Source of the DNA: Globomyces pollinis-pini
Taxonomy: Eukaryota; Chytridiomycota; Chytridiomycetes; Rhizophydiales; Globomycetaceae
Length of the DNA: 12,120 bases
Assembly: GCA_025399215.1 (NCBI GenBank)
Contig: MU621526.1
Coordinates: 1-12,120 of the forward strand
Direction: 5' to 3'
Shown here: positions 1 to 12,120 of the stretch, in pieces
Layout: each line of letters begins with the position of its first letter
Position numbering within the stretch: the stretch's first letter is position 1
Translations under genes and position numbers: made by a program
Notes under the pieces: generated by a model
Database searches by the model: none
Told to the model about the DNA's origin: nothing
The model's input: the letters and a program-made list of their open reading frames with translations, nothing else

Positions 1-51
1 CTTTCCAAAATGTCAGCACGTTTGTTTAGGGTTCCTATCTATTTCTGATAA

Positions 52-234
52 TTAACAGCTATTACTGATAGTGATTTTGGCACTATCAGATAAAAAGCTA
101 TAACCCACTTCTGCTAACGGAGCATTGAAATACGGAATATATTCTTGAACCGAACGTGAACCCTGATTACACCTCAAACGTTTTTGAAAATTTCCACAGA
201 GTCCATTGGTCTCGGGCATCGGTTCGAACCTCAC
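52..234 (-). pseudogene. possible LTR-retrotransposon Gag remnant
   Basis: A 60-codon open stretch on the minus strand with no convincing start. Its middle reads QGSRSVQEYIPYFN followed by FLSDSAKITIS. This resembles the part of Ty3/gypsy-type Gag proteins where a 'Q-x-x-x-SVxEYIxxF' segment precedes a helix ending in a hydrophobic block. The resemblance is from memory of the family pattern, not an alignment. Nothing else of a retroelement (protease, RT, LTR, primer site) is visible nearby, so this would be a short decayed fragment. It overlaps the first of the two TTCGA repeats. It could equally be a chance open frame. Confidence 0.3.
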
Positions 235-329
235 CTTAACTGCTTTTTTTCAAGCATATTTAGTGCTATTTTGAGCCTTGAGATCCTGGGCACCGGTTCG
301 AGCCCGGCCTCAACTACCCTTCTTTTTTT
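203..329 (+). repeat. pair of related repeats with B-box-like core and T-run
   Basis: Two related segments, about 203-250 and 275-329, share GGGCAYCGGTTCGARCC, then CCTYAACT, then a run of seven T. Their GGTTCGA cores start at 221 and 294, 73 nt apart. The second core, GGTTCGAGCCC, fits the eukaryotic Pol III B-box consensus GGTTCGANNCC, and the T-run resembles a Pol III terminator. I find no A-box and no acceptor-stem partner, so neither copy is a tRNA. Most likely they are truncated tRNA-derived (SINE-like) 3' ends or part of a mobile element. Confidence 0.45.
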
Positions 330-330
330 G

Positions 331-455
331 GATGGGTGAGTGGGTGAATACTGGGTGAAATGGGTAGGGTCGTCATTTCTGGAACTTCACCCACCCTGAA
401 CTTACCCAAGGTCTCACCCATGGTTCATGGGTCACTGACCCATGGGTGCCCAGCC
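331..455. repeat. cluster of inverted GGGTGA / TCACCC repeats
   Basis: The left half (about 331-370) repeats GGGTGA-type words on the plus strand and the right half (about 384-455) carries the complements, TCACCC and ACCCATG. Facing arms include AGTGGGTGAA against TTCACCCACC and GATGGGTGAG against CTCACCCATG, each 9 of 10 matched. At 426-444 there is a perfect 19-nt palindrome, CATGGGTCA-C-TGACCCATG. The block is GC-rich compared with its surroundings and could fold into several alternative hairpins. It may be a mobile-element end or simple-sequence expansion. No coding potential was seen. Confidence 0.6.
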
Positions 456-684
456 TTACACCTTGGTATGATAACTTTACTAGAATTCATACTAATGAGT
501 TACAAACATGATAAACACTTTCGTAATTGAGCAATATACGTGTATTAATACATTAAAAATGGATGATAGTTTCTGGATAATAAGTTAGGATTCATGATGC
601 CATTATTGATTCATGTCCAAGTTGTCTCATGTTCATGGCTCAGTTTACAATTGATTTTGTGGTTTACCCAGAAACAAAGATTTG
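456..684. other. AT-rich upstream region of the first 7TM gene
   Basis: Plain AT-rich sequence between the repeat cluster and the ATG at 685. It presumably holds promoter and 5' leader, but I see no motif that I can defend. An in-frame TGA at 652-654 fixes the ATG at 685 as the first in-frame start. Confidence 0.4.
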
Positions 685-1855
685 ATGGAAAATGTATTTG
701 AAATAGCAGGTGCATTGTTGAGTTCCGTTGGTACGATTTGGGTTTTATTGGTAAAGAATTGAATTCACTGAAGGACAGAATAACAAACTACCCAATAATT
801 CTTACAATACTCTACTGAAAACGTTTTGCATTGCATGGACCATTGCACTATGTAGGTTTATATATAAAGTGTAATATTGTAGTGTACATTACTGCGTTTG
901 TGGTTTTGAAAATCGTTGCTGCGGATGATGCTTGCTGGAAGTCAGGGATGAAGACTGATTGTCCAGTCTATATACAAATTGCTAATAGTATTGAAATTGT
1001 GTTGGGTATTTTTGTATATACCATTACATTTGTCTTGACTGGCATTCCATGGTATATTGTGGGGCACAATGGTTCGCTAGAGCAAATCAATCCTCAAAAG
1101 ATCATAATAACTGCTGCTGCATTATCCAGTCTATGCCTGTCTGCTGGCATCCCCAGTGAAACGTAATGGTTGTTATTTAACTTTCTAGTGCCCTAAGAGC
1201 TGCTTCAATATATGTATTATTATTATACATTACTATCTTTCCTGGAATAGGGTACTTTTGTGCACGCACTTGGTATCGATTAAGACAAGAAGCTATAGAA
1301 CGGAACACCAACCATTCAAATTCAGTTAAAGAATATAGCGAAAATCGAAAATACCGTGCGAGTGTTCTCATGGCAAAGTTATCATACATTACCGCTGGAT
1401 CCACGTTCCTTCCTTTCATTATTACTACCTTGACATTTCTATGTATTGGTATTCTATACCCCGACGATCCAGATATGCTGAGGCGAAGTGAATACCCTAT
1501 TTGGCTTAAACTACTGTTGTGGTTTTCCACATTTTGTGGAACAGGTATGGGCGCCTTTTTTGGAGTATGTGTCTATTATCTTTTCAAGGATATTGATGAC
1601 TATATGAAAGAATCGCCAAGATTAGAAGTGAAGGAAAGTGTAATGGATCTACCAGACTCGGGGATTGACAGGAACGGAGCACACAGCTTGAATGAAGTAG
1701 TTCCTGACCAAGATCTTTCAATATCAATAAGCGACAATGGACTAGATATGGACTTTGATATGTCCATCAGTAGGGATTTTGGACAAATTTCGATATCTAA
1801 CAATGATTCCATTACTCCTTTAAACAAACGAAATTTTGATGTAAATAGCTTCTAA
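685..1855 (+). CDS. seven-transmembrane (GPCR-like) protein, tandem copy A
   Basis: Predicted 361-residue protein from four exons: 685-750, 779-851, 883-1162 and 1189-1855, with introns of 28, 31 and 26 nt. Seven hydrophobic segments lie near residues 4-22, 34-57, 83-106, 119-136, 146-165, 203-230 and 245-272, after a very short N-terminus. The TM2-TM3 loop has Cys64 and Cys73. TM3 ends in GIPWYIVGHNGSLEQ, which is nearly the same in copy B, and TM5 ends in RTWYRLR, a basic cytoplasmic start of loop 3. The roughly 90-residue C-terminal tail is acidic and Ser-rich and carries the motif DMDFDMSISRDFGQI (about 326-340). Architecture and topology suggest a cell-surface receptor, but I could not assign it to a named GPCR family. 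The resemblance to STE3-type pheromone receptors is only general. The exon structure matches the next gene, so the two are tandem duplicates. The first AG of intron 1 (about 773) would give a stop, so the AG at 778 is required. Confidence 0.8.
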
Positions 1856-2061
1856 TATATTCTGTGCATATCATTATGTCTGTTTTCAAGTGAAGCTCCA
1901 AACCTTGTATCTTGATCGAAATGACCGAATCGATTGCTCAATCTCAGAAGACAATAAAGAAAACACTAAGAGTACTAGTACATTTTCAGTTGGACATGAA
2001 ACTGGGAGGAAGACAACCAACTCCCAAAAACGCCAAAATCACTTTACCAAGCACAAACAAG
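1856..2061. other. short spacer between the two 7TM genes
   Basis: About 206 nt separate the stop of copy A from the start chosen for copy B. The frame of copy B stays open upstream through in-frame ATGs at 1921 and 1996. The spacer could therefore be 5' leader, as I assume because copy A lacks any such extension, or encode up to 47 extra, basic N-terminal residues. No promoter motif recognised. Confidence 0.4.
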
Positions 2062-3444
2062 ATGATTATGGTGATATGCAGCCTCTTGGGGAGTTTTATG
2101 GGTTTAATGGGGTCAATATGGATATTAAGAGTAACACAACGCAATTAATTCTAGAATAACAAACTACCAAATAATGTGTATAGAAAACTGATGAAATATA
2201 TGTGTATTGGATGGATAATCGCAGCTGGTAACCAAAAATTTAAGTTTGATTCAGGAAAAAGGGTATCAATTCATATATGAGATTCTATCGTTTGCATTTG
2301 TGAATGAAGATTGTAGACTATCTTTACTTAAGTTAAATTGTCCAATGACAGTACGAATAGGATATGGAATCTCAACAGCACTGGAATGTTTTCCATTGAT
2401 GATTGTGTGTGTGCTAATGGGTATACCATGGTATTTGGTAGGACATAACGGATCCATAGAACAAATTGATTTTCAAATAGTTATTTCATTGGCATCCTGT
2501 TATTCTTTATTGCAGTTGGTAATACTAATAGATAATCCAACGTAAACTTTCACAAATATTCTAAATTTAGTGTTCAAGCTATAATACTATTGGCTAATGG
2601 ATTATTTATATTTGGTATTTTACCTGGATCGATTTATTGTTGTTTTCGAACTTGGTATCGACTACGACTTGAACGTCAAGAGTTAGGGATAGAAATAGAT
2701 GAAAATGGAAAGTATAAAGGCAGTTTTCTGATCGCAAGATACTCATACATCTTGCTTGTTTCTATATTAATTTCGTATTTACCCACACCTGCTTATATGT
2801 CTATTCGTCCGTACTTACATCCTGAAGACCTCAATTTCGAGAATTACATGAATGACGCGATATGGCTTCAAATTTTCCTTTACTGTGATGTATTCTTAGG
2901 TACTTCGATAGGTGGTTGGTTCGCACTTGGTATACATTATCTATTCCAAAAAATGAAGTTTCCAATACATACATCATCGCGAAGTGAAACTCTTCAAGAT
3001 CCGAATTCAAATCCGTCGATGGTTATTGAAGAGATATGTCAAATGGACAGTGATGGATTTGATAAGTTGAATCAATTGGCTATTCAACCTAGTCAGTCAA
3101 TGTCGGTTGGTGATTATGAAATGGATTTTGATATGGATATGTCACTCAGTCGCGATTTCGGTCAAATAGATAGTGGAAATAGTCTCGGATTGGGTCAAAG
3201 ACTTAGCGAAAATGACACGAATTTTGGTCAAATATCCAGCTATAATGATATGGCACAAAGTTACGGTTTTGGTCAAGGGGGAGACAGCAACGTGAAAGTT
3301 CACACCACACAAGATTTAGGTCCAATGGCGCCAAATAATTCCTTAGCATCAGATCAAAATGTATCATCCAACCAAGTATACAATAACATGACAGACTCAA
3401 CTGAACCACTAACAAACGGTATGTTTGCTGATAAAACGTCTTGA
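2062..3444 (+). CDS. seven-transmembrane (GPCR-like) protein, tandem copy B
   Basis: Predicted 431-residue paralogue of the preceding gene, with exons 2062-2130, 2155-2227, 2262-2541 and 2571-3444 and introns of 24, 34 and 29 nt. Exons 2 and 3 have the same lengths (73 and 280 nt) and phases as copy A. The start at 2062 is chosen because it aligns with copy A; in-frame ATGs at 1921 or 1996 remain possible. Shared features are seven hydrophobic segments, two cysteines in the TM2-TM3 loop, GIPWYLVGHNGSIEQ after TM3, and RTWYRLRLERQ after TM5. The C-terminal tail is longer than in copy A, about 160 residues. It is Asn/Ser/Gly-rich and carries EMDFDMDMSLSRDFGQI at about 324-340, followed by further FGQ motifs (NFGQI, GFGQG). 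Function is probably receptor-like signalling, with ligand unknown. In intron 2 the nearer AG would create a stop, so a downstream AG (2261) is used. Confidence 0.78.
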
Positions 3445-3667
3445 TAAATCCAAGTTGGACAGAATCCTACATAACACGGCATACAGTGCCAAACCCAACA
3501 ACAAGCTCAATTAATAATTTTATAAGATCAAATCAAACAAGACTAGACATATCTTTTCCACTGACCCAAAAACGAAGCACATAATGGAAAATTTAACAGC
3601 ACTAAATCGTAACCAAGTCAAGAAGAATAACATATGAATAATAAAATATATATCAATCTAAACTTAT
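3445..3667. other. convergent 3' intergenic region
   Basis: AT-rich spacer of 223 nt between the stop of the second 7TM gene (plus) and the stop of the peptidase (minus). It must hold both 3' ends. No gene or strong repeat is seen; ATAATAAAATATA-like stretches near 3637-3652 could serve 3'-end formation. Confidence 0.4.
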
Positions 3668-5626
3668 TTATTTCGGTGTAATAGATTCGAGGTAAAAAGG
3701 GATCTTTCGTTCAAAAATAGCTGCCTGCATTTTAGGAATCTCAAAAAATTGATGTCCACCAGTAGCAAATGGTATTAATTCAACCGATTTACCAGACTCC
3801 TTCAATCGATCATACAAAGCTTGGGTGTGTTCATACACTACATTTTCATCATCTCTAGCATGTGTCAACAGCAACGATCCTTTAAAATTTTCTGTGAAAT
3901 TCAATGGAGATCTGTTGTAGTACACTTCTGGAATATCTTCAGGCTTTCCACCATACAAGTCAACAAATAACGGCCACCCATCATCATCTACTATATTGTA
4001 ATTATAATTTTTCACCGTTATGTTCAGATCTGAGGGACCACAAGATGAACATCCAGCTTTGAAAACATCCGGTTCAAACATAAGACAACAATTTGTTATA
4101 TAACCACCTGCAGAAATCCCTTCCACCAGCAATCGCTCACGATCAACCAACCCAATAGACGCCAAGTACTTTGCTGCATCACACGTATCTGCAACATCAA
4201 CCACCCCAACTTTACTTATAAGGCGTCGAAAATGATTTTTACCAAATGATGGTGAACCACCATAATTGACTATAGCATAGGCGAAACCTCGAGATGTTAC
4301 GTACTGTATCTCCCAATTAAATCCACATCTTTCGAAATAATCAGGGCCTCCATGACAATAAACAATACAAGGTGGTAATTCACCATCCAAACCAGTATAA
4401 TCAGGATTCGTTGGTGGGTAGTAGTACAGATATGAACTTGATCCATCTCTTGTTGGGAAAGTGAAATATTGATGTTCTGAAATATATCCTTTCAAGTCTT
4501 GAACATCATAAGAAGTCGCAAATTGTAATACCTCTTTTGTAGACAAATCCAACCCAAACAAGCTTACAGGTTTATCAAATTGAGATGCTCTCAGTGCCAA
4601 TATAGCTCGATCTCCAAATTGGACCACTCTTATCCCAACAATATCACAGAATATTTCAGTAACTTTAGTGTATTCATTTGTGTTCAAGTCAATCTTTCCA
4701 ATAGTTTCCTTACCGGCATCATTGTACACAAAGTATAATTCATTAGATAACAATGACAGATATGATCTAGAATCTTCATCATCCACAGGCAAGCAATCCC
4801 CATTGACTGATGAAACTTGTTTTGATACTTTAGTATCAATATCAAAAGTCTTGATTTGTCGATAATTTCCACACTCTCCAATGTAACAGAATGTGTTTAG
4901 ACCGTGCCATTGTACTGGTCCACTGCACAGTTCCGGAATTTCATTAACCCGTATAACGTCAGTCAATTTCAATCCTTCAATTCTTCCAACACAGATATGT
5001 TTTTTCTTTCCAAAGTGTTCTTGGTAAACCCAAGATACGTAAGATCCATCAGGTGAGAAAGAAAAAGCTTCAAAAGTATAACCATCTAGCCATACTTCAA
5101 CATGACCAGATTCTAGATTGATATAATTTGCGACATAAGGTCCTGGAAAGTCATTTGCTAGTAACACCAAGACATGTTTACCATCGGGATGAAATTCAAT
5201 TTGTTCTGCTCCAAGTTCAAATTCCGCAACTAATTGATGTTCATTGTTCTTGTAAGTATAGACATTATTATCTTTAGGATCTTGGTATACGATGATACCA
5301 TCATTAACCGCAAACATTCGAGGAGGTACGAAATCATCTTGATTCGTTATGAATGGTACAGAATTCGTAATGGATTCTGCTGTGACTTTCAATAAAGATT
5401 TAACTTTTTTTGGATCGATATGTCTAATGTACCAGTGACCAGTAACGTTATCAACAATCAACCTTGTAGAAAATAAAGTTTTTGGTCTAAGCATATCATT
5501 GGTTTGAATTGGACTAGTCCAAGTCCCAAAACTTTTACTTTTCATTTTGTTTTTTGTCATTTGTTTTCCATTTACCGTTACCGTGGTTTTGTTGGAAGGA
5601 ACGTTGACTTTAATAGATACTGGCAT
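3668..5626 (-). CDS. prolyl oligopeptidase-family (S9) serine peptidase, intronless
   Basis: A single uninterrupted frame of 652 codons. The N-terminal ~380 residues have repeated beta-strand patterns (for example IEFHPDGK and FSFSPDGS near 143-150 and 188-195) typical of the seven-bladed propeller that gates S9 peptidases. The C-terminal alpha/beta-hydrolase domain has HGGP (425-428), NYGGSPSFG (454-462, with the likely oxyanion Tyr455), nucleophile motif GISAGG (Ser505), acid in ARDDENVV (Asp593) and TGGHQF (His625), so the triad is complete. The family cleaves peptides or N-acyl-aminoacyl peptides; the exact specificity (acylaminoacyl versus dipeptidyl) cannot be told from this. There is no signal peptide or membrane segment, so it is probably cytosolic. 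It is the only complete gene in the window without introns, although it is among the longest, which could mean retroposition or acquisition by transfer. It ends 223 nt from the convergent 7TM gene. Confidence 0.93.
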   Translation of the reverse strand: MPVSIKVNVPSNKTTVTVNGKQMTKNKMKSKSFGTWTSPIQTNDMLRPKTLFSTRLIVDNVTGHWYIRHIDPKKVKSLLKVTAESITNSVPFITNQDDFVPPRMFAVNDGIIVYQDPKDNNVYTYKNNEHQLVAEFELGAEQIEFHPDGKHVLVLLANDFPGPYVANYINLESGHVEVWLDGYTFEAFSFSPDGSYVSWVYQEHFGKKKHICVGRIEGLKLTDVIRVNEIPELCSGPVQWHGLNTFCYIGECGNYRQIKTFDIDTKVSKQVSSVNGDCLPVDDEDSRSYLSLLSNELYFVYNDAGKETIGKIDLNTNEYTKVTEIFCDIVGIRVVQFGDRAILALRASQFDKPVSLFGLDLSTKEVLQFATSYDVQDLKGYISEHQYFTFPTRDGSSSYLYYYPPTNPDYTGLDGELPPCIVYCHGGPDYFERCGFNWEIQYVTSRGFAYAIVNYGGSPSFGKNHFRRLISKVGVVDVADTCDAAKYLASIGLVDRERLLVEGISAGGYITNCCLMFEPDVFKAGCSSCGPSDLNITVKNYNYNIVDDDGWPLFVDLYGGKPEDIPEVYYNRSPLNFTENFKGSLLLTHARDDENVVYEHTQALYDRLKESGKSVELIPFATGGHQFFEIPKMQAAIFERKIPFYLESITPK

Positions 5627-5994
5627 TTGATTATTAAAGTTTCATAATTCAATCTGACATGTTTTATAAGTTTGTCAAGAAATGACTCATTTGCTTCAGG
5701 TGGTAGGACAGGCTTGTCTGAAACACTTATTTGATTAAAAATGGACTGAATTGGGAACGAATATATTTGAGTTTAAACTGATTCTTGGATAGAAGGAAAG
5801 GGCATTATTGGAGTTAGTAAATGAATATCTTCACAGATCAAGTCGCGTAAAAGTTGTTAGTACATTTCGTATAGATAAACCAGTTCTCAGTTATTTTAAA
5901 CAGTCTATTGAATCAAAACAATCCTTCTTAAAAAAGTAACAGTTTATTGGGAGTAAAGATATGTAAATTCAATAGTAATTTCATAAACACAAGA
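5627..5994. other. intergenic region between lipin 3' end and peptidase 5' end
   Basis: Spacer of 368 nt, AT-rich, between two minus-strand genes. It should hold the lipin 3' untranslated region and the peptidase promoter and leader. No ORF, RNA gene or clear motif was found. Confidence 0.4.
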
Positions 5995-8900
5995 TTAAGG
6001 TTGAAAAACAACACGTCCAAGTGGATCAATTTCATCCGAGCTTCCAGAAGACTCCGATTCATCATCACTCTCAACATCAATCACCACAGGTGGCAATGCA
6101 GGTTTCCAATACGAAAAATCATTATACTCTGGTTCCAATACTGTTGTAGGTGCTATTCATAATAAGATAATGATTAAAATTACGGAATAATTGATCAACA
6201 GTTTCATTGAGCTTAGTATAGGTTGATTTGTAATCGGCCAACAATTCAAGTTTGATATCACCACTAGGATCGATTGTGAAGATTCGACTGGATGGAACAT
6301 TCTAAAGTATTACACATCAAAGACAAAAACTCTTACAACACTACGGTACGACATGGCATCCTAAGGGGTTAGATGCAATTGATTACAGTGATTCGATTGC
6401 CAAAGCCAGCATAGAATGGATTGGTTTCTCCAAATAAACGTCCAATATCTCGCAGACATTGCATTTTGAATTCCTGAGGTTTACGTTGAATAACTTCTCG
6501 AGTGAATGCTAATGGTGAATAAATAACAAATCAACCTTGCATGAGTCGGTCGGGTGATAACAGTATAGGTCCTTCAGGCAATTGATACTGATCTTGCTCA
6601 ACTTTAGCTAGATATTCTCGCGTATAGCCAGCCTGTCCAATAGCACGCGAAGTCAAGTACAAGAAATGGTACCCATTATTTGCAATATTTGTATAGAAAT
6701 TAGCTACACCTGCATGTGTCCAATCTTTGCCCACCTACAGTCAGTTGGATTATCTACCATAGTAAAGACGTGACCAAGAACATCAGACCTATGGTTAAAA
6801 AAGGCAAAGTTACTTGGTGATAGTTCCATCGACGTCGGATATGACAATCTTGGTATCATGGTCCCAGAGATAAATCTTGGCACTGGATATAGCTTTACCT
6901 TGAAACCCAGAATTCACAGAAAACTACCATATTAAAAATATAAAATCACTTGAATCGTATTCACACCTTTCTTCAAATTCAACGCTTTCTAACCGTAAAC
7001 AAATATAACGTACCAGCTGAGTGGAGTTCATCCGCAGCGATTTGGCATAACCCGGTCGTCGAGCTGCAGGACTCATCGCCCGTTTTGGACTCACCAATGG
7101 TGTTGCAGGTGGAGGAGTATGGAAGTTAGGCTCAGACGCTTTTGGCCTCAGCGTACGAGTGGGAGAGGTAGACCTTGAACCCCACCAAGACCAAGAGGTG
7201 GATTTCGGGGTGCTCAGAATATCCATTAATCCCTGAGTCGAGAGTGACCGCCGAAACAGGATTTGCGATAGGATAATCGGACATGCAGTTTCCCAAGTGT
7301 GAAGGCTACAATGAGTTAAATAGTATTACTAGCCATTAATTTTGTAGATTGTGGTTGATTTATAGAGGATATCGGGCCTATCGCAAAAGGTCTCGAAATC
7401 AATCTGCTGTGCTTCAAATCGATCATCAGCGTCCTACTATCAACTCTGGTCAACATTTGATACCTTTGGGGACAACTTTTGTAGATCAGACAAGGGTCCA
7501 CATTGCGACACCAAAATTTCCGTTTCTTCTCGAAGTCCATTTCCAAGGATTTCCTGACATATATCAGGATTCAGCTCTTGGTCAATGGCGATGCGGTTGG
7601 CGTTGGGTTGCAGTGTTGATAAATACTTGTTAACTTTTTCATCAGGGGAGATCGAGCCTTGGATAAGTGGTTGATCCGCACCTGAATATGAGTTATTGGT
7701 GTCATTGTACCAGTGACGACCGATATGGTAGGTTTGGCATGGTATGATAAAGCTGGCGTACTAACACGTTTTCCTATACAACGTCAATTAATACTTCACA
7801 TACCTAACAGTTAATAGATATTTGAATCACCTGTGTGTTAGTGGTTATGCAATACCAAGATTGGGCGCCTTTTGGTTAACATTTTGAGACTGTCGTTCCG
7901 GGAGACCTCCCCAACTCCAACTCCAAGGCGGACTGTTGGGTGGTAATTTGGTATGTAAATCAAGGGTTGCTAATGACGCATCGAAATAATCCGGATTATC
8001 CATTGGGTTTATTGGTGGGATATCATTGGTGTGCATTTGATTCATCAATGTTATATCAGTCGGTTTGGTAGTTTTATCCTGGTTATTGGAGTCAACACCA
8101 TCTAAAAGCAATGATGGTTGTATTTTTGTGGTTTGTGAGGATAGGATGGTGTTAAGTTGTGATGTAGGAGCATCATGTAGCGCATTCTGAATATCGGTTT
8201 TATGAATTGAAAGAGTATGCGTACTTTCATTATCTGCAGTGACGGCGTTGGTTTTAATCGTTCCAGACTTCTGATTATCAAGCTCATTGTTGCTGTATAC
8301 GTTTTCAATAACGGTTGAGCCAAGCCCACTCCCAAGTTCAACGCCAAGTGAATTATTATCCTGAGCTAATCCAGTATTGTTGTTATTGTTTATGAGAGGA
8401 GCCAAGAAATCACGTTGAATACGAGCAGATGTAGGAATGTTTGAAAAATCCGAATCAAGATTTGTGTTGTTAAGTTGCATCTGTGCGAAATCTGAATGAT
8501 TAGTGAGTGTTGGTACCGCTATTCATGGTTGACAATGCAGTGCTTGCTTTATCCTATCGTTAATGATTACTGGGGGATATGTGGTGATTGGAGCGAGAAA
8601 TAAAAATACAAAAAGGCATCCTGTACAAAAAGACAGTAGTTAAGGAAAATAAAATAAAGATTATAAGAGCATGGTTAGAAGAGGAGTTTAAGAGATACCA
8701 ACACTTTGTGTTTGGACAGTATATGCGTGTTAGTTACATTAGATTCTGGCAGCTGTGGGTTTAATTGAAATTGTGAGAGAGCCTAAAATGAGAACCAAAA
8801 CAATACATTATCATCTGTAGGTGTAAGAGATGGATGTAAAATGGGAGAAGTAGCGTATTCGGAGGCGGGATTATCAGCTTCTACGACAAAGAACGCTTCT

Positions 8901-9397
8901 CCCTGATCACCAACCTTCATGACGATATCCACAGGGTTGTTGTTTACTGAAAGTTCGACCTAAACCATTAAAGATCATCTTTTTGAGTAGTAGTGATAGT
9001 CGTTCCGGTAATATTAGTCGCATTGGTGGTAACATTAATTGAGAGGTAATAAAGAGAAACATTACAATTTTATCAGAAGGTCTGAGTAGTTTAAGTTTTC
9101 CAAAACGAACGTGAAAGGGAGAGGCCATCAAATCACCATTTGGTTGTTTTACGACAACGATACTAGCTATTAGTAATAAGTGGTGATATATACCTATTGG
9201 TAAGTAAATAGTGGTTTATACCTATTGGTTAATTGATTAAAATTAGATACCTAATTATTATTGATTGGTAATGAATACTCTATAGCACCAGAGAGGGTAG
9301 CAGGGTTTATTTCACCATAAAATGATCCCACCGCATTAACAGCTGATACTACAGGCCATAAAGCTCTACCAGCCAGATCGGTAACAAGAGATGTCAT
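5995..9397 (-). CDS. PAH1: lipin / phosphatidate phosphatase, 18 exons
   Basis: Mg-dependent phosphatidate phosphatase, which converts phosphatidic acid to diacylglycerol at the ER/nuclear membrane. Predicted about 867 residues. Exons (minus): 9279-9397, 9066-9162, 8807-8959, 8699-8782, 8517-8553, 7856-8491, 7711-7773, 7464-7681, 7330-7433, 7014-7305, 6950-6988, 6814-6923, 6758-6788, 6536-6734, 6387-6508, 6337-6360, 6184-6301, 5995-6152. Exon 4 could instead end at 8705 or 8738 (865 or 854 residues). The N-LIP domain is clear: [19 protein letters not shown] (54-62), [10 protein letters not shown] (88-97) with the conserved Gly89. The middle is low-complexity with two Trp motifs, WSWSWGG (353-359) and WSWWGS. 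C-LIP has [12 protein letters not shown], the HAD catalytic motif DVDGT (644-648; Asp644, Asp646), [19 protein letters not shown] and [10 protein letters not shown]. The tail has FSYWKP (Trp831), like the conserved C-terminal Trp region of fungal and animal lipins, then an acidic stretch like the one that recruits the Nem1-Spo7 phosphatase in yeast. All catalytic residues seen are intact. Introns are 23-35 nt except for two multi-unit arrays and two longer ones. Confidence 0.93.
7774..7855 (-). other. three-unit mini-intron array in lipin (exon 6/7 boundary)
   Basis: Three complete GT..AG units abut head to tail: 7831-7855 (25 nt), 7804-7830 (27 nt) and 7774-7803 (30 nt). Each has its own branch-like word before the AG (CTAAC, TTAAC, TTGAC). 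Joining 7856 to 7773 restores the frame (codon G|GA). Leaving any single unit in gives an in-frame stop within a few codons. Whether the 82 nt leave in three steps or in one cannot be told from DNA. Confidence 0.75.
8554..8698 (-). other. long lipin intron with ambiguous 5' splice site
   Basis: Between exons 4 and 5 of lipin lies an intron far longer than the 23-35 nt norm. The acceptor ending at 8554 is needed for the frame ([12 protein letters not shown] follows). Three in-frame phase-0 donors are possible, at 8698, 8704 and 8737, giving introns of 145, 151 or 184 nt. The interior is pyrimidine-rich and has no internal AG|GT junction, unlike the arrays. Confidence 0.55.
8960..9065 (-). other. 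106-nt lipin intron
   Basis: Sits between DKI (exon 2 end at 9066) and VELSV (exon 3 start at 8959), splitting the N-LIP domain in phase 0. It starts GTAATG and ends TTTAATGGTTTAG. It has no internal AG|GT junction, so it is a genuine longer intron and not a chain of mini-introns. Confidence 0.75.
9163..9278 (-). other. four-unit mini-intron array in lipin (exon 1/2 boundary)
   Basis: Four GT..AG units in series: 9251-9278 (28 nt), 9222-9250 (29), 9194-9221 (28) and 9163-9193 (31, using the second of two close AGs). All begin GTAT. Units 2 and 3 end ACCAATAG and unit 4 has ACTAATAG, so they look like diverged copies of one another. Removing all 116 nt joins GA|T and gives [19 protein letters not shown], the expected lipin N-terminus. 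Any single unit left in creates a stop. Confidence 0.8.
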
Positions 9398-9707
9398 TTA
9401 TAATAAGAGATTAGGATACTTTGTGATTGAATGAATTTGGTAATAGGTAATTGATTCTTTAGTTTTTTGATTATAGTTTTTTGGTGGTAGTTTGAATGAT
9501 AGTTAAATGAGAGTAGGGTTAGGGTTTCCAATTCTAGTCACGTGATTAGGTTCAACCGTCACGTTACAAAAGTGGGAAATTAGTTGCACTTGGATCACCA
9601 TACTCACCAACTATCAACAAAATCATTCAATCAATTACTGCATTAAATACTTGCTAAAATATTACTATCAATCACTAAATTACTTACTAAAATACAAAAA
9701 TAATCTC
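9398..9707. promoter_or_regulatory. shared divergent promoter of lipin and acyltransferase genes
   Basis: These 310 nt separate the ATG of lipin (9397, minus) from the ATG of the acyltransferase (9708, plus). They hold a palindromic E-box TCACGTGA at 9538-9545, an imperfect copy GTCACGTTAC at 9558-9567, and TAGGGTTAGGGTTT at 9514-9527, which is two telomere-type repeats in tandem. CACGTG-type sites bind bHLH factors in fungi and animals, including regulators of phospholipid genes. TTAGGG sites bind Tbf1-like factors in yeasts. Which factors act here is inference. The 3' part (about 9600-9707) is AC/AT-rich and probably the leader of the acyltransferase mRNA. Confidence 0.65.
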
Positions 9708-11103
9708 ATGCTTTCAACTCTATCAAAATTAGCCCTACTCTTCTTTATACTTCAAACGGCCTCTAAACGTTCTCCTCTACTCAGATACGTATTAAGAACT
9801 CTTGGGCTAGTTGCTTCAATTGCAATCGCTGGTTAACTATTCATACCTCTAACAATAACAGGTAATCTATCCGACCTTTAACTCTAAGGTGTCTTGGCTT
9901 GTCTTGCCTCTCTCATCCTCGTCCCATTACAGCAACGTTTCTACGTCAATGCAATCAACGCTTACTTTTTCAGACTCTTCTGTCCTCTCTTTACCGGAAT
10001 TCAAGCCGAAATCGTTTGATCTTCTTATGACTTACCTTAGGTATATCTAATATCCCTCACTTTAGGTGTCCGGTCACGATTATTTGGAACATACTCCAGG
10101 AAAACCTTGCATTTATGTTGCCAACCACCAATCTACTCTCGACCTCATGGTGATCTCAACAGTATGGCCATCTCGCACTGTCATCAGTGGAAAAAAAGAA
10201 ATTAAATATATTCCAATTATGGGTCAAGTTCTCTGGGCTGGTTTGTCTTCCTCTCTTATCTTTTTTTAGGAAGTAATATCTTTATTGATCGTCAGAACAG
10301 GAAAAATGCTATCGACGCAATGACTCAGGTAACTACAAATCATCTTTATCTCATCAATGCACAATCACTTCAAATGTGTTCTGAAAGAGTTTTTGTATTT
10401 TATAAGACCAAATTTGATTTTGTATGCATATCAACCAGGAATAAGCACTAAAGTGTTTCAGTTACTATGAGCATTCACAAATGCTAAAAGCTTTTGGTTA
10501 TTGATACAGATTTCGTTTGGGCATATGCTTAAAGATCACCAATGATGATAATTCACTTTACGATTCTTTCAAGTGTTCATATCTTTTCTCTATTATTAAT
10601 ACTCCCAATTATATCAACACGACTAACTAACAAATAGGTAGGAAATAGAATGAAAAAAGATGATTTGAATTTCTTTATTTTCCCTGAAGGAACTCGTTCC
10701 CACCAAATTGATAATACACTCCTGCCGTTCAAAAAAGGCGCATTTCATTTGGCTAAACAGTTCGGATACCCTATCGTTCCAATTGTTTCTTCTACTTATT
10801 ATCCAGGTTTGTTTTTACACTTGCTTATTTTCTCTTAGGTAAATAGATTCATATTCATTCATTCATTCATAGGTACGAATATAAAAATAACAAGTAGCGT
10901 ACGATGAAAAACGAAAACTATTCAATGATGCCACTATACAAGTCAAAGGTACAACTATCCATCTAATTCCAGTGTTACCACCCATTGACAGTACTGATGA
11001 ATCAAAGTCTGTGAATGATTTGGTCAAGGAAACTCATGATGCTATGTCTCAAGCCCTCAAGGATATCAAAACCGTTTGCCATGGCAAAAAGAAGATTCAA
11101 TAA
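9708..11103 (+). CDS. SLC1: 1-acyl-sn-glycerol-3-phosphate acyltransferase (LPAAT), 7 exons
   Basis: Transfers an acyl group to lysophosphatidic acid to make phosphatidic acid, at the ER membrane or lipid droplets. Exons: 9708-9831, 9889-10013, 10066-10240, 10270-10328, 10638-10806, 10898-10948 and 10973-11103, giving 277 residues, the usual size for the family. Hydrophobic anchors lie near residues 4-18 and 31-55. All four acyltransferase motifs are present in order: NHQSTLD (103-109; catalytic His104 and Asp109), GKKEIKYIPIMGQ (125-137), FPEGTRS (176-182) and YPIVPIV (205-211). LPFKKGAFHLA and VLPPID are also typical. The ATG at 9708 is the first in-frame ATG. Three of its six intron positions are arrays of two or three abutting mini-introns, one is 309 nt, and the last (10949-10972, 24 nt) is in frame and stop-free. 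It pairs head to head with lipin, which consumes its product. Confidence 0.93.
9832..9888 (+). other. two-unit mini-intron array in acyltransferase (exon 1/2)
   Basis: Units 9832-9861 (30 nt) and 9862-9888 (27 nt) meet at AG|GT. Each carries a TAAC branch-like word (CTCTAAC, TTTAAC). Joining 9831 to 9889 gives SIAIAGVLACL with frame kept. Leaving unit 1 gives an immediate TAA; leaving unit 2 gives GNLSDL then TAA. Confidence 0.75.
10014..10065 (+). other. two-unit mini-intron array in acyltransferase (exon 2/3)
   Basis: Units 10014-10040 (27 nt) and 10041-10065 (25 nt) meet at AG|GT; both end in a CTTAG or TTTAG type acceptor. Phase 0 joining gives AEIVSGHDYLE, as expected before the catalytic NHxxxxD motif. 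Unit 1 retained gives TGA at once. Unit 2 alone (25 nt) shifts the frame. Confidence 0.72.
10329..10637 (+). other. 309-nt intron, outlier in length
   Basis: Lies between MTQ (ends 10328) and VGNRMKKDD (starts 10638), phase 0. It starts GTAACT and ends ACTAACTAACAAATAG with a strong branch site. It is about ten times longer than its neighbours, has no internal AG|GT junction and contains stops in the reading frame. I looked for a hosted snoRNA: one ATGATGA C-box-like word is present but no D box follows. Confidence 0.75.
10807..10897 (+). other. three-unit mini-intron array in acyltransferase (exon 5/6)
   Basis: Units 10807-10838 (32 nt), 10839-10872 (34 nt) and 10873-10897 (25 nt) follow each other at AG|GT junctions. 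Joining 10806 to 10898 gives SSTYYPAYDEKRKLFN in frame. Each unit retained alone brings a stop. The middle unit holds an ATTC microsatellite (about 10851-10870), so its length may vary between individuals. Confidence 0.75.
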
Positions 11104-11548
11104 ACTATCAATGTTTTATTATACTCATTTTCTTTACGTTCTTTTAGTAGGGATTCATTTTCTTCATGAAATTGATGACTTCATTATTTAAAGATCAACG
11201 TATTCGCGTTCACATTTCTTGTAATAGCACTGAGATGGTAAGTCATCATAAATACGTTGTAATAGAATGAAGGAAATCGTTTATATATGTGTGTTGTATT
11301 TTCCCACTGACCAGTCGGTTTGTATTTATTCTTCGCACGACAACAAAAACTTTATATTTAGGTGGATAAACTTTTGCGTATCTAAAATACATGTAGTCTC
11401 GGAAGAAACGTGTAAATTTGACTGAATTTTAGATCCTGCCTTGATTACACATGTCTAGAAATAATGAAAGAATAGTAAAGATTTGCCAGACCACATTAAG
11501 TAGAATGAAATAATCAATCAATTTGATGTCAAGAATTTTTATTCGTAA
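11104..11548. other. convergent 3' intergenic region
   Basis: 445 nt between the stop of the acyltransferase (plus) and the stop of the kinase (minus). It is AT-rich, with no ORF of note, no repeat and no RNA gene that I can support. It must contain both transcript ends. Confidence 0.4.
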
Positions 11549-12120
11549 CTAGTCTCGATTTCTACTAAAACAACTGATGGATCTAATCATTGCTCGGCAA
11601 TTATCCCAATATCTTCCAAAAACGCTTCGAGAACTGCCCTCTTCAACACCTTTTCTTCCTTCTGTAGGCAATACTGGTTCTGGTAACAGCGTTAAATCTG
11701 AATCCTCACTGTTGAAGCATTTCAATTGCGTAATGCCATCAAACGCGGGACGAATGTTCACATCTACCTCCATTAGAGTCTTGATAAGTAGTTTCGCATT
11801 TGGGGAGATATGAAATGGTCTCTCCTCATTTAGTATTGCCTCGAACTCTTCCATGCTCTTGCCAATATCTCTCTCTGAAGCCGGTAAATTAAATGCAAAT
11901 GGAAGCTTGGCTCCATAAAAGATTGAAAATGCAAGCATACCGAAAGAGTAGCTCTCCGATTTTGAAACATCAAATGGATCACCTCCGATTGCTTCAGGAG
12001 GTCCGTAATACTCAGATCCATTGAATGGTGGATCAACAGCTTTAGTTGAAATACAAGACCCAAAATCAATCAACTTCGTTTGCATCGTAACGGTGTTTAC
12101 CATAACATTAAAGTCTAGTA
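11549..12120 (-). CDS. protein kinase, C-terminal part (runs off the right edge)
   Basis: About 190 residues of the C-lobe and tail are visible. The frame remains open to the window edge, so the ATG at 12103 is internal, not a start. Visible motifs: LDFNVMVN just before the edge (catalytic-loop N-V-M-V), KLIDFG (the Mg-binding DFG), EYYGPPEAIGG (the APE-like end of the activation segment), SESYSFGMLAFSIFYG (subdomain IX) and NIRPAF (subdomain XI Arg). This is enough for a Ser/Thr or Tyr-like kinase fold. Two oddities: the residue usually Asp in D-x-Y/W-S-x-G is Glu, and the residue two before the N of N-V-M-V is Asp with Leu before it, so the catalytic-loop Lys of a standard HRDLKxxN may be missing. 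The substrate is unknown. There is no intron in the visible part. The tail ends CFSRNRD. Confidence 0.82.
   Translation of the reverse strand, partial: LDFNVMVNTVTMQTKLIDFGSCISTKAVDPPFNGSEYYGPPEAIGGDPFDVSKSESYSFGMLAFSIFYGAKLPFAFNLPASERDIGKSMEEFEAILNEERPFHISPNAKLLIKTLMEVDVNIRPAFDGITQLKCFNSEDSDLTLLPEPVLPTEGRKGVEEGSSRSVFGRYWDNCRAMIRSISCFSRNRD

Follow-up and report, generated by a model that had tools for sequence, protein, structure and literature searches.

Recursive splicing in Drosophila and vertebrates removes introns stepwise through juxtaposed AG/GT sites (the slash marks the joint) and leaves an apparent zero-nucleotide exon (PMC8605326; PMC5126111). In Drosophila, the process requires a cryptic recursive-splice (RS) exon with its own downstream donor (PMC8605326). 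In the human genes UBC and VCX3A, AGGT acts as donor and acceptor, and the intron copies come from repeat expansion (PMC10809524). Stwintrons are compound fungal introns that are excised by successive U2 reactions (PMC9024468; PMC7138796). Introns of a size near 25 nucleotides (nt) are normal in some ciliate species (PMC5014332), and intron gain by tandem genomic duplication has been described (PMC4974935). Here, we analyze a 12,120-nt stretch (positions 1-12120, the window) that comes from one contig of the 18.5-Mb genome of the chytrid fungus Globomyces pollinis-pini (order Rhizophydiales). It contains a gene pair identified by Pfam matches, a minus-strand lipin and a plus-strand lysophosphatidate acyltransferase, in which ultra-short introns directly abut each other at five intron positions.

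The array junctions are similar to the ratchet points of recursive splicing in that an AG/GT acceptor-donor junction marks an apparent zero-nucleotide exon; stepwise removal is described in animals and is here suggested by the sequence. In contrast to the long animal introns, an entire Globomyces array totals 52-160 nt and contains at most five minimal introns, in a fungus. The arrays, as judged from their sequence, resemble recursive splicing at AG/GT yet lie outside the very long introns that define that class. The dual-specific sites of UBC and VCX3A concern coding repeats, with variable splicing in UBC, whereas the unit here is a non-coding mini-intron and there is one deposited product. 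Stwintrons are known in fungi and removed by successive reactions (PMC9024468), but they are nested and lose the inner intron first, whereas the Globomyces units abut and could leave in any order. We rejected a stwintron identity for the arrays, to which we assign practically no probability, because every unit is complete, with its own ends, and none is an inner intron interrupting the signal of an outer one. For ciliates, abutting arrays are not described in the accessible text, and the terms "tandem" and "AGGT" are absent from the main text of PMC5014332. Tandem genomic duplication accounts for the gain of a single new intron, whereas in Globomyces a whole intron appears to be copied in place, at many loci. 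Among the literature matches listed (titles and beginnings of abstracts, with thin coverage of subscription journals), we found no report of abutting mini-intron arrays, either genome-wide or in chytrids. Our favored explanation, which we consider probable, is that these are ordinary, complete ultra-short spliceosomal introns in abutting arrays that arise by silent duplication and are mostly removed unit by unit.

A first-pass annotation of the window had proposed 14 units joined by nine AG/GT junctions, and direct inspection confirms this division to the nucleotide in all five intervals (Table 1). The lipin arrays on the minus strand comprise 28+29+28+31 nt (array 1, 9278-9163) and 25+27+30 nt (array 2, 7855-7774), and the acyltransferase arrays on the plus strand 30+27 nt (9832-9888), 27+25 nt (10014-10065) and 32+34+25 nt (10807-10897). 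Even with the window kept out of its training, a gene model with a 0.12 chain prior recovered all 14 units. Their donors are GTA (10/14), GTT (3/14) or GTG (1/14), their acceptors TAG (11/14), CAG (2/14) or AAG (1/14), and a YTNAY motif is located within the branch-point window in 12 of the 14. The last unit of lipin array 1 extends to 31 nt, as stopping at an earlier AATAG would bring an in-frame stop into the next exon. Array units in general measure about 24-35 nt. Most start with a GTA donor and stop at a TAG acceptor, with a YTNAY-type branch point located 6-13 nt from their end. Every array junction reads AG/GT and, by its sequence, could serve as acceptor and next donor at once.

The exon ends had been described as fixed by homology and reading frame, and protein comparisons support this: the deposited G. 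pollinis-pini proteins P0001 and P0212 join at the same points, and solved lipins align across the joint of lipin array 1. The acyltransferase P0001 equals our spliced product at all three arrays and differs from it solely by 8 extra residues, corresponding to a 24-nt intron left in the deposit. Among six aligned relatives, these residues are missing from P0002, P0008, P0010 and P0016, and P0003 and P0005 stop earlier. The lipin P0212 removes both lipin arrays exactly. In the lipin of a second isolate, Globomyces sp. JEL0801 (P0213), protein comparison reveals the same joint at array 1; P0213 is without the 21 residues following array 2, and this deposit thus skips the next exon. Elsewhere in the lipin gene (about 6735-6813, minus strand), P0212 is without the residues GKDWTHAG. 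A short intron is probably mis-annotated in P0212 at this position, because GKDWTHAG is present in the lipin of the second isolate and in our spliced model.

Table 1. Array units and other introns of the lipin and acyltransferase genes in the window
Feature	Length (nt)	Position	Strand	Basis or remark
Lipin array 1, unit 1	28	9251..9278	-	layout, gene models; removed in P0212
Lipin array 1, unit 2	29	9222..9250	-	layout, gene models; removed in P0212
Lipin array 1, unit 3	28	9194..9221	-	layout, gene models; removed in P0212
Lipin array 1, unit 4	31	9163..9193	-	layout, gene models; removed in P0212; earlier AG gives stop codon
Lipin array 2, unit 1	25	7831..7855	-	layout, gene models; removed in P0212
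Lipin array 2, unit 2	27	7804..7830	-	layout, gene models; removed in P0212
Lipin array 2, unit 3	30	7774..7803	-	layout, gene models; removed in P0212
Acyltransferase array 1, unit 1	30	9832..9861	+	layout, gene models; removed in P0001
Acyltransferase array 1, unit 2	27	9862..9888	+	layout, gene models; removed in P0001
Acyltransferase array 2, unit 1	27	10014..10040	+	layout, gene models; removed in P0001
Acyltransferase array 2, unit 2	25	10041..10065	+	layout, gene models; removed in P0001
Acyltransferase array 3, unit 1	32	10807..10838	+	layout, gene models; removed in P0001
Acyltransferase array 3, unit 2	34	10839..10872	+	layout, gene models; removed in P0001
Acyltransferase array 3, unit 3	25	10873..10897	+	layout, gene models; removed in P0001
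Undivided lipin intron	106	8960..9065	-	no AGGT; irreducible by nesting; removed in P0212
Undivided lipin intron	145	8554..8698	-	gene model; P0212 implies 184 nt, from 8737
Undivided acyltransferase intron	309	10329..10637	+	no AGGT; removed in P0001; one model variant starts at 10395
Single acyltransferase intron	24	10949..10972	+	left in deposited P0001; absent from four relatives reaching this point

We analyzed 250 kb from 16 contigs together with the window (262 kb in total), using a semi-Markov gene model that was trained without outside annotation and optionally chains one intron directly onto another. Ultra-short introns are the rule in G. pollinis-pini: beside approximately 154 kb of coding sequence, the model predicts 567 introns, of which 542 are 23-37 nt long, with a length peak at 27-29 nt and few above 37 nt. 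Most have a GTA donor, a TAG acceptor and a YTNAY-type branch point. With chaining allowed, zero-length exons occur 33 times, whereas any given length between 1 and 60 nt averages 1.2 occurrences; the commonest of these lengths (15 nt) is seen seven times, six of them in one gene. Juxtaposed AG/GT sites inside an interval, as found at recursive splice sites, thus number nine in the window and 33 in the 262-kb sample, one of the 33 being an over-called unit in CLK (see below). Of the 534 intron positions in the chaining model, 19 hold arrays; these consist of two units in eleven cases and of three units in five, and the remaining three arrays have four, five and six units, respectively. When the prior was neutral, exon sides were left unscored and the window was kept out of training, the model gave 18 zero-length exons in 237 kb versus 1.1 per other length. 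In this neutral form, it misses the three acyltransferase arrays, and its counts are therefore conservative. In a scan of unit scores that excluded the window, exact abutment was found 16 times, whereas other offsets averaged 2.9. A model run on reversed sequence returned 2 genes and 3 introns with one abutting pair, numbers too small to serve as a control.

Depending on the prior, there are 10-14 arrays in 237 kb, which by extrapolation scales to about 800-1,100 per genome. Arrays occupy 2-4% of intron positions (12/515 under the neutral model). The proposal that they represent a common state is thus not borne out overall, but it holds for intervals of middle size (44-175 nt), where the neutral model finds 12 arrays and 12 undivided introns.

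We next consider a less biased set, for which chaining was forbidden and introns were judged solely by their two ends and the coding sequence on either side. Nine of the 32 introns of at least 44 nt can be divided without remainder into adjoining GT..AG units of 22-38 nt, the shuffle expectation being 1.45. The window lipin arrays are two of the nine, and the other 23 introns do not tile. A pattern that needs no gene model (GTAT...TAG/GTAT...TAG/GT with intron-sized gaps) matches 109 times genome-wide, compared with 2 and 5 matches when one arbitrary base or three bases are placed at the joints. For a looser pattern (TAG/GTAT...TAG/GTA; 209 matches), 93 of 100 units listed have a spacing of 24-36 nt, with 15-45 nt permitted.

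Several observations weigh against our interpretation. Read backwards, the 109-match pattern still occurs 19 times, so this control is not empty, and for the looser pattern the backwards count is 128, a weak contrast in number. Donors generally prefer a preceding exonic AG, which alone favors abutting AG/GT. In CLK, the sixth unit was over-called by the chaining model, as homology and the neutral model give five. Over the 44-175 nt range, the neutral model predicts undivided introns as often as arrays, and long introns would thus be removable in one step. Only 2 of 33 neighboring pairs in the 262-kb sample attain a similarity of 0.32, the 99th percentile for random pairs, suggesting that most arrays are old or of other origin. 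Finally, one result that speaks for duplication comes from a weak test: an AG before or a GT after the array is found in 13/19 cases versus 205/515 for single introns (p = 0.017), as expected after duplication through microhomology at splice sites. The first of these points, together with dinucleotide-preserving shuffled introns that in single cases tile at up to 0.42, could indicate that AG/GT sites arise by chance in AT-rich introns or as an artifact of the annotation method. We rejected this explanation, which has a negligible probability in our estimate, because tiling, pattern matches and the counts of models trained without the window all exceed their controls; in addition, unit lengths in the looser pattern cluster, and the deposited proteins, together with relatives of solved structure, fix the exon ends.

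Eleven of the 19 arrays are located in genes whose identity and joint are supported, namely acyltransferase (3), lipin (2), Rab8, CLK, Dopey, an M48 peptidase, a MutS-family protein (MSH2-like) and KAP. For Dopey, M48, MutS and KAP, the joint is backed solely by a Pfam domain spanning it. The Rab8 array (160 nt, 32+31+35+28+34) maps inside RFRTITT/AYYRGAMGI, a stretch that is identical in the solved Rab-8A structure 5szi, and the deposited Rab protein P0123 is 100% identical to the spliced Rab8 over 206 amino acids. The CLK array (138 nt, 25+27+29+28+29) maps inside FLHDLG/LIHTDLKPEN, with its five units fixed by homology. Identity searches covered 12 of the 19 arrays, and a phosphatase-like array gene had no Pfam match.

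Two further arrangements were seen in the sample. The CLK-like kinase gene (contig C1, about 21981-21683, minus strand; L011) starts with six successive 15-nt exons of YDDRR-like repeats, parted by introns of 25-30 nt and forming a tandem array of intron and micro-exon. On contig C6 (about 7383-7445, plus strand; L020), a 63-nt interval divides into 30 nt, TT and 31 nt, and reads as two introns around a 2-nt exon or as a decayed array joint.

We investigated the splice signals inside the units using 98 neighboring unit pairs (61 contigs, 182 distinct units) taken from the 109-match pattern, which asks for no branch point. Branch points were scored with a matrix trained on predicted introns and compared with 20 mononucleotide shuffles per unit; pairs from the same array are not independent. 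First and second units both score 2.88, single introns 3.21 and shuffles 1.1-1.3. First units thus differ from shuffles (p = 2e-18) and neither from single introns (p = 0.18) nor from second units (p = 0.82). The excess over shuffles persists for first units of the 67 less similar pairs (p = 4e-13). Where similarity does not exceed the random median (27 pairs), 21 of the 27 first units carry the motif, compared with a fraction of 0.32 in shuffles. We also inspected 13 internal junctions in introns chosen without internal scoring, five of them from the window lipin arrays. T at -3, A at +3 and a branch-point motif are each present in 12/13, compared with 57/361 (T at -3) and 58/361 (A at +3) for AGGT in coding sequence. 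Acceptor signals upstream and donor signals downstream, as at recursive splice sites, are therefore predicted for 12 of 13 junctions each. The earlier description of serial arrays of complete ultra-short introns thus extends genome-wide, with units that mostly have their own donor, branch point and acceptor. The arrays sit in conserved genes, and their internal signals are about equal to those of single introns.

These signals bear on how an array is removed. It could be spliced in one step as a single intron of 50-160 nt, its internal AG/GT sites being unused relics of duplication. This would yield the same mRNA as stepwise removal, and undivided introns of similar or greater length are removed in the same genes. 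However, relics would be expected to decay along with the diverged interiors, whereas first-unit branch points equal those of last units even between dissimilar neighbors, and T at -3 and A at +3 are kept at nearly all internal junctions. We therefore regard one-step removal as a serious but unlikely alternative. If arrays were only removed in one step, nothing would protect the branch points of first units from decay; their retention suggests unit-wise use and is its main support. Stepwise removal of units is thus likely, as far as sequence can tell.

The three longer introns of the window had been noted to have no internal AG/GT, which is correct for the 106-, 145- and 309-nt introns. At the 145-nt intron, P0212 has 13 residues fewer, implying 184 nt, and AGGT is absent from this version too. 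The 106- and 145-nt introns are irreducible to GT-AG pieces of 22-38 nt, nesting included. In 17 non-tiling introns of 57-148 nt, nesting makes 4 reducible versus about 3.4 expected from resampled sequences, and we rejected nesting as a general account of longer introns, as there is no excess over chance. The further proposal that the spliceosome is limited to introns of about 25-35 nt must be given up, because the undivided 106- and 309-nt introns are removed in the deposited P0212 and P0001, respectively. A soft preference for short introns fits our data, an absolute limit does not.

How do arrays originate? Some neighbors are near-copies: there are two identical 32-mers on contig C168, five similar 27-mers on contig C68 and two almost identical units in Dopey. 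Neighbors are more alike than random, as expected from tandem intron duplication, with 28/98 pairs above the random 95th percentile of similarity, 19/98 above the 99th and one pair identical. The similarity is local. A value of 0.6 is reached by 9 of the 2,682 pairs that share a gene or contig and by 12 of 260,493 pairs between genes (726 units), five of the latter representing one locus counted twice. By this sequence evidence, a minority of arrays appears to have grown locally as one complete intron was duplicated in tandem, with breaks at AG/GT, and we infer a duplication origin for most arrays. AGGT sites are reportedly also involved in the intron gain attributed to tandem genomic duplication. 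Alternatively, introner-like mobile elements of intron size could insert repeatedly at AG/GT and stack. The mostly dissimilar neighbors (31 of 33 below 0.32) are what independent insertions would produce, but there are no dispersed families, and cross-gene similarity is at chance level in the sample (726 units; 262 kb and the 98 pairs). We thus rejected introner-like dispersal in the sample and consider such an origin very improbable.

The preferred explanation of abutting complete introns suggests the following mechanism. Taking out any unit or run of units would leave either AG/GT or the correct exon joint. As every joint is AG/GT, all removal routes would give the same mRNA, and duplication of a whole unit would consequently be silent. 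Units would usually be excised singly and in any order by a spliceosome working best on introns of 24-35 nt, and this preference would place internal donors, branch points and acceptors under selection even after units have diverged. We infer both the order-free removal and the argument from splicing efficiency. A regulatory function, in which retained units shift the reading frame, tune expression or generate isoforms, appears more improbable even than stacked insertions. Retaining a unit would often cause a frameshift, since 370/544 introns and 36/52 array units are no multiples of three, but about two-thirds is also the chance value, the array genes are unrelated and no regulatory sign was found.

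Other genes in the window lie outside the arrays. A gene of about 650 residues (3668-5626, minus strand), which presumably encodes a prolyl-oligopeptidase-type peptidase, is without predicted introns, unusual in this intron-dense genome. Two adjoining genes on the plus strand (948-1855 and 2417-3444) have similar tails (DFDMDMSLSRDFGQI-like) and are probably tandem paralogues; they resemble seven-helix receptors.

Recursive splicing has mostly been studied for very long animal introns, and the same AG/GT logic is found here in a fungus whose array introns measure about 24-35 nt; the extrapolated number of array loci is several hundred or higher. On balance, we lean toward a miniature form of recursive splicing being routine in Globomyces, in which units of 24-35 nt are added at AG/GT and about a thousand arrays may be dismantled unit by unit, in any order. 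If true, this would represent a path-independent mode of splicing, in which intron duplication is selectively silent and each unit is kept functional. By tandem duplication of whole units, introns could grow directly, with no change to the protein. Gene finders that do not allow for zero-length exons may misread array genes. The arrays also offer a natural way to ask whether a spliceosome's preference for short introns is strong enough for a 57-nt insert to be cut in two rounds instead of one.

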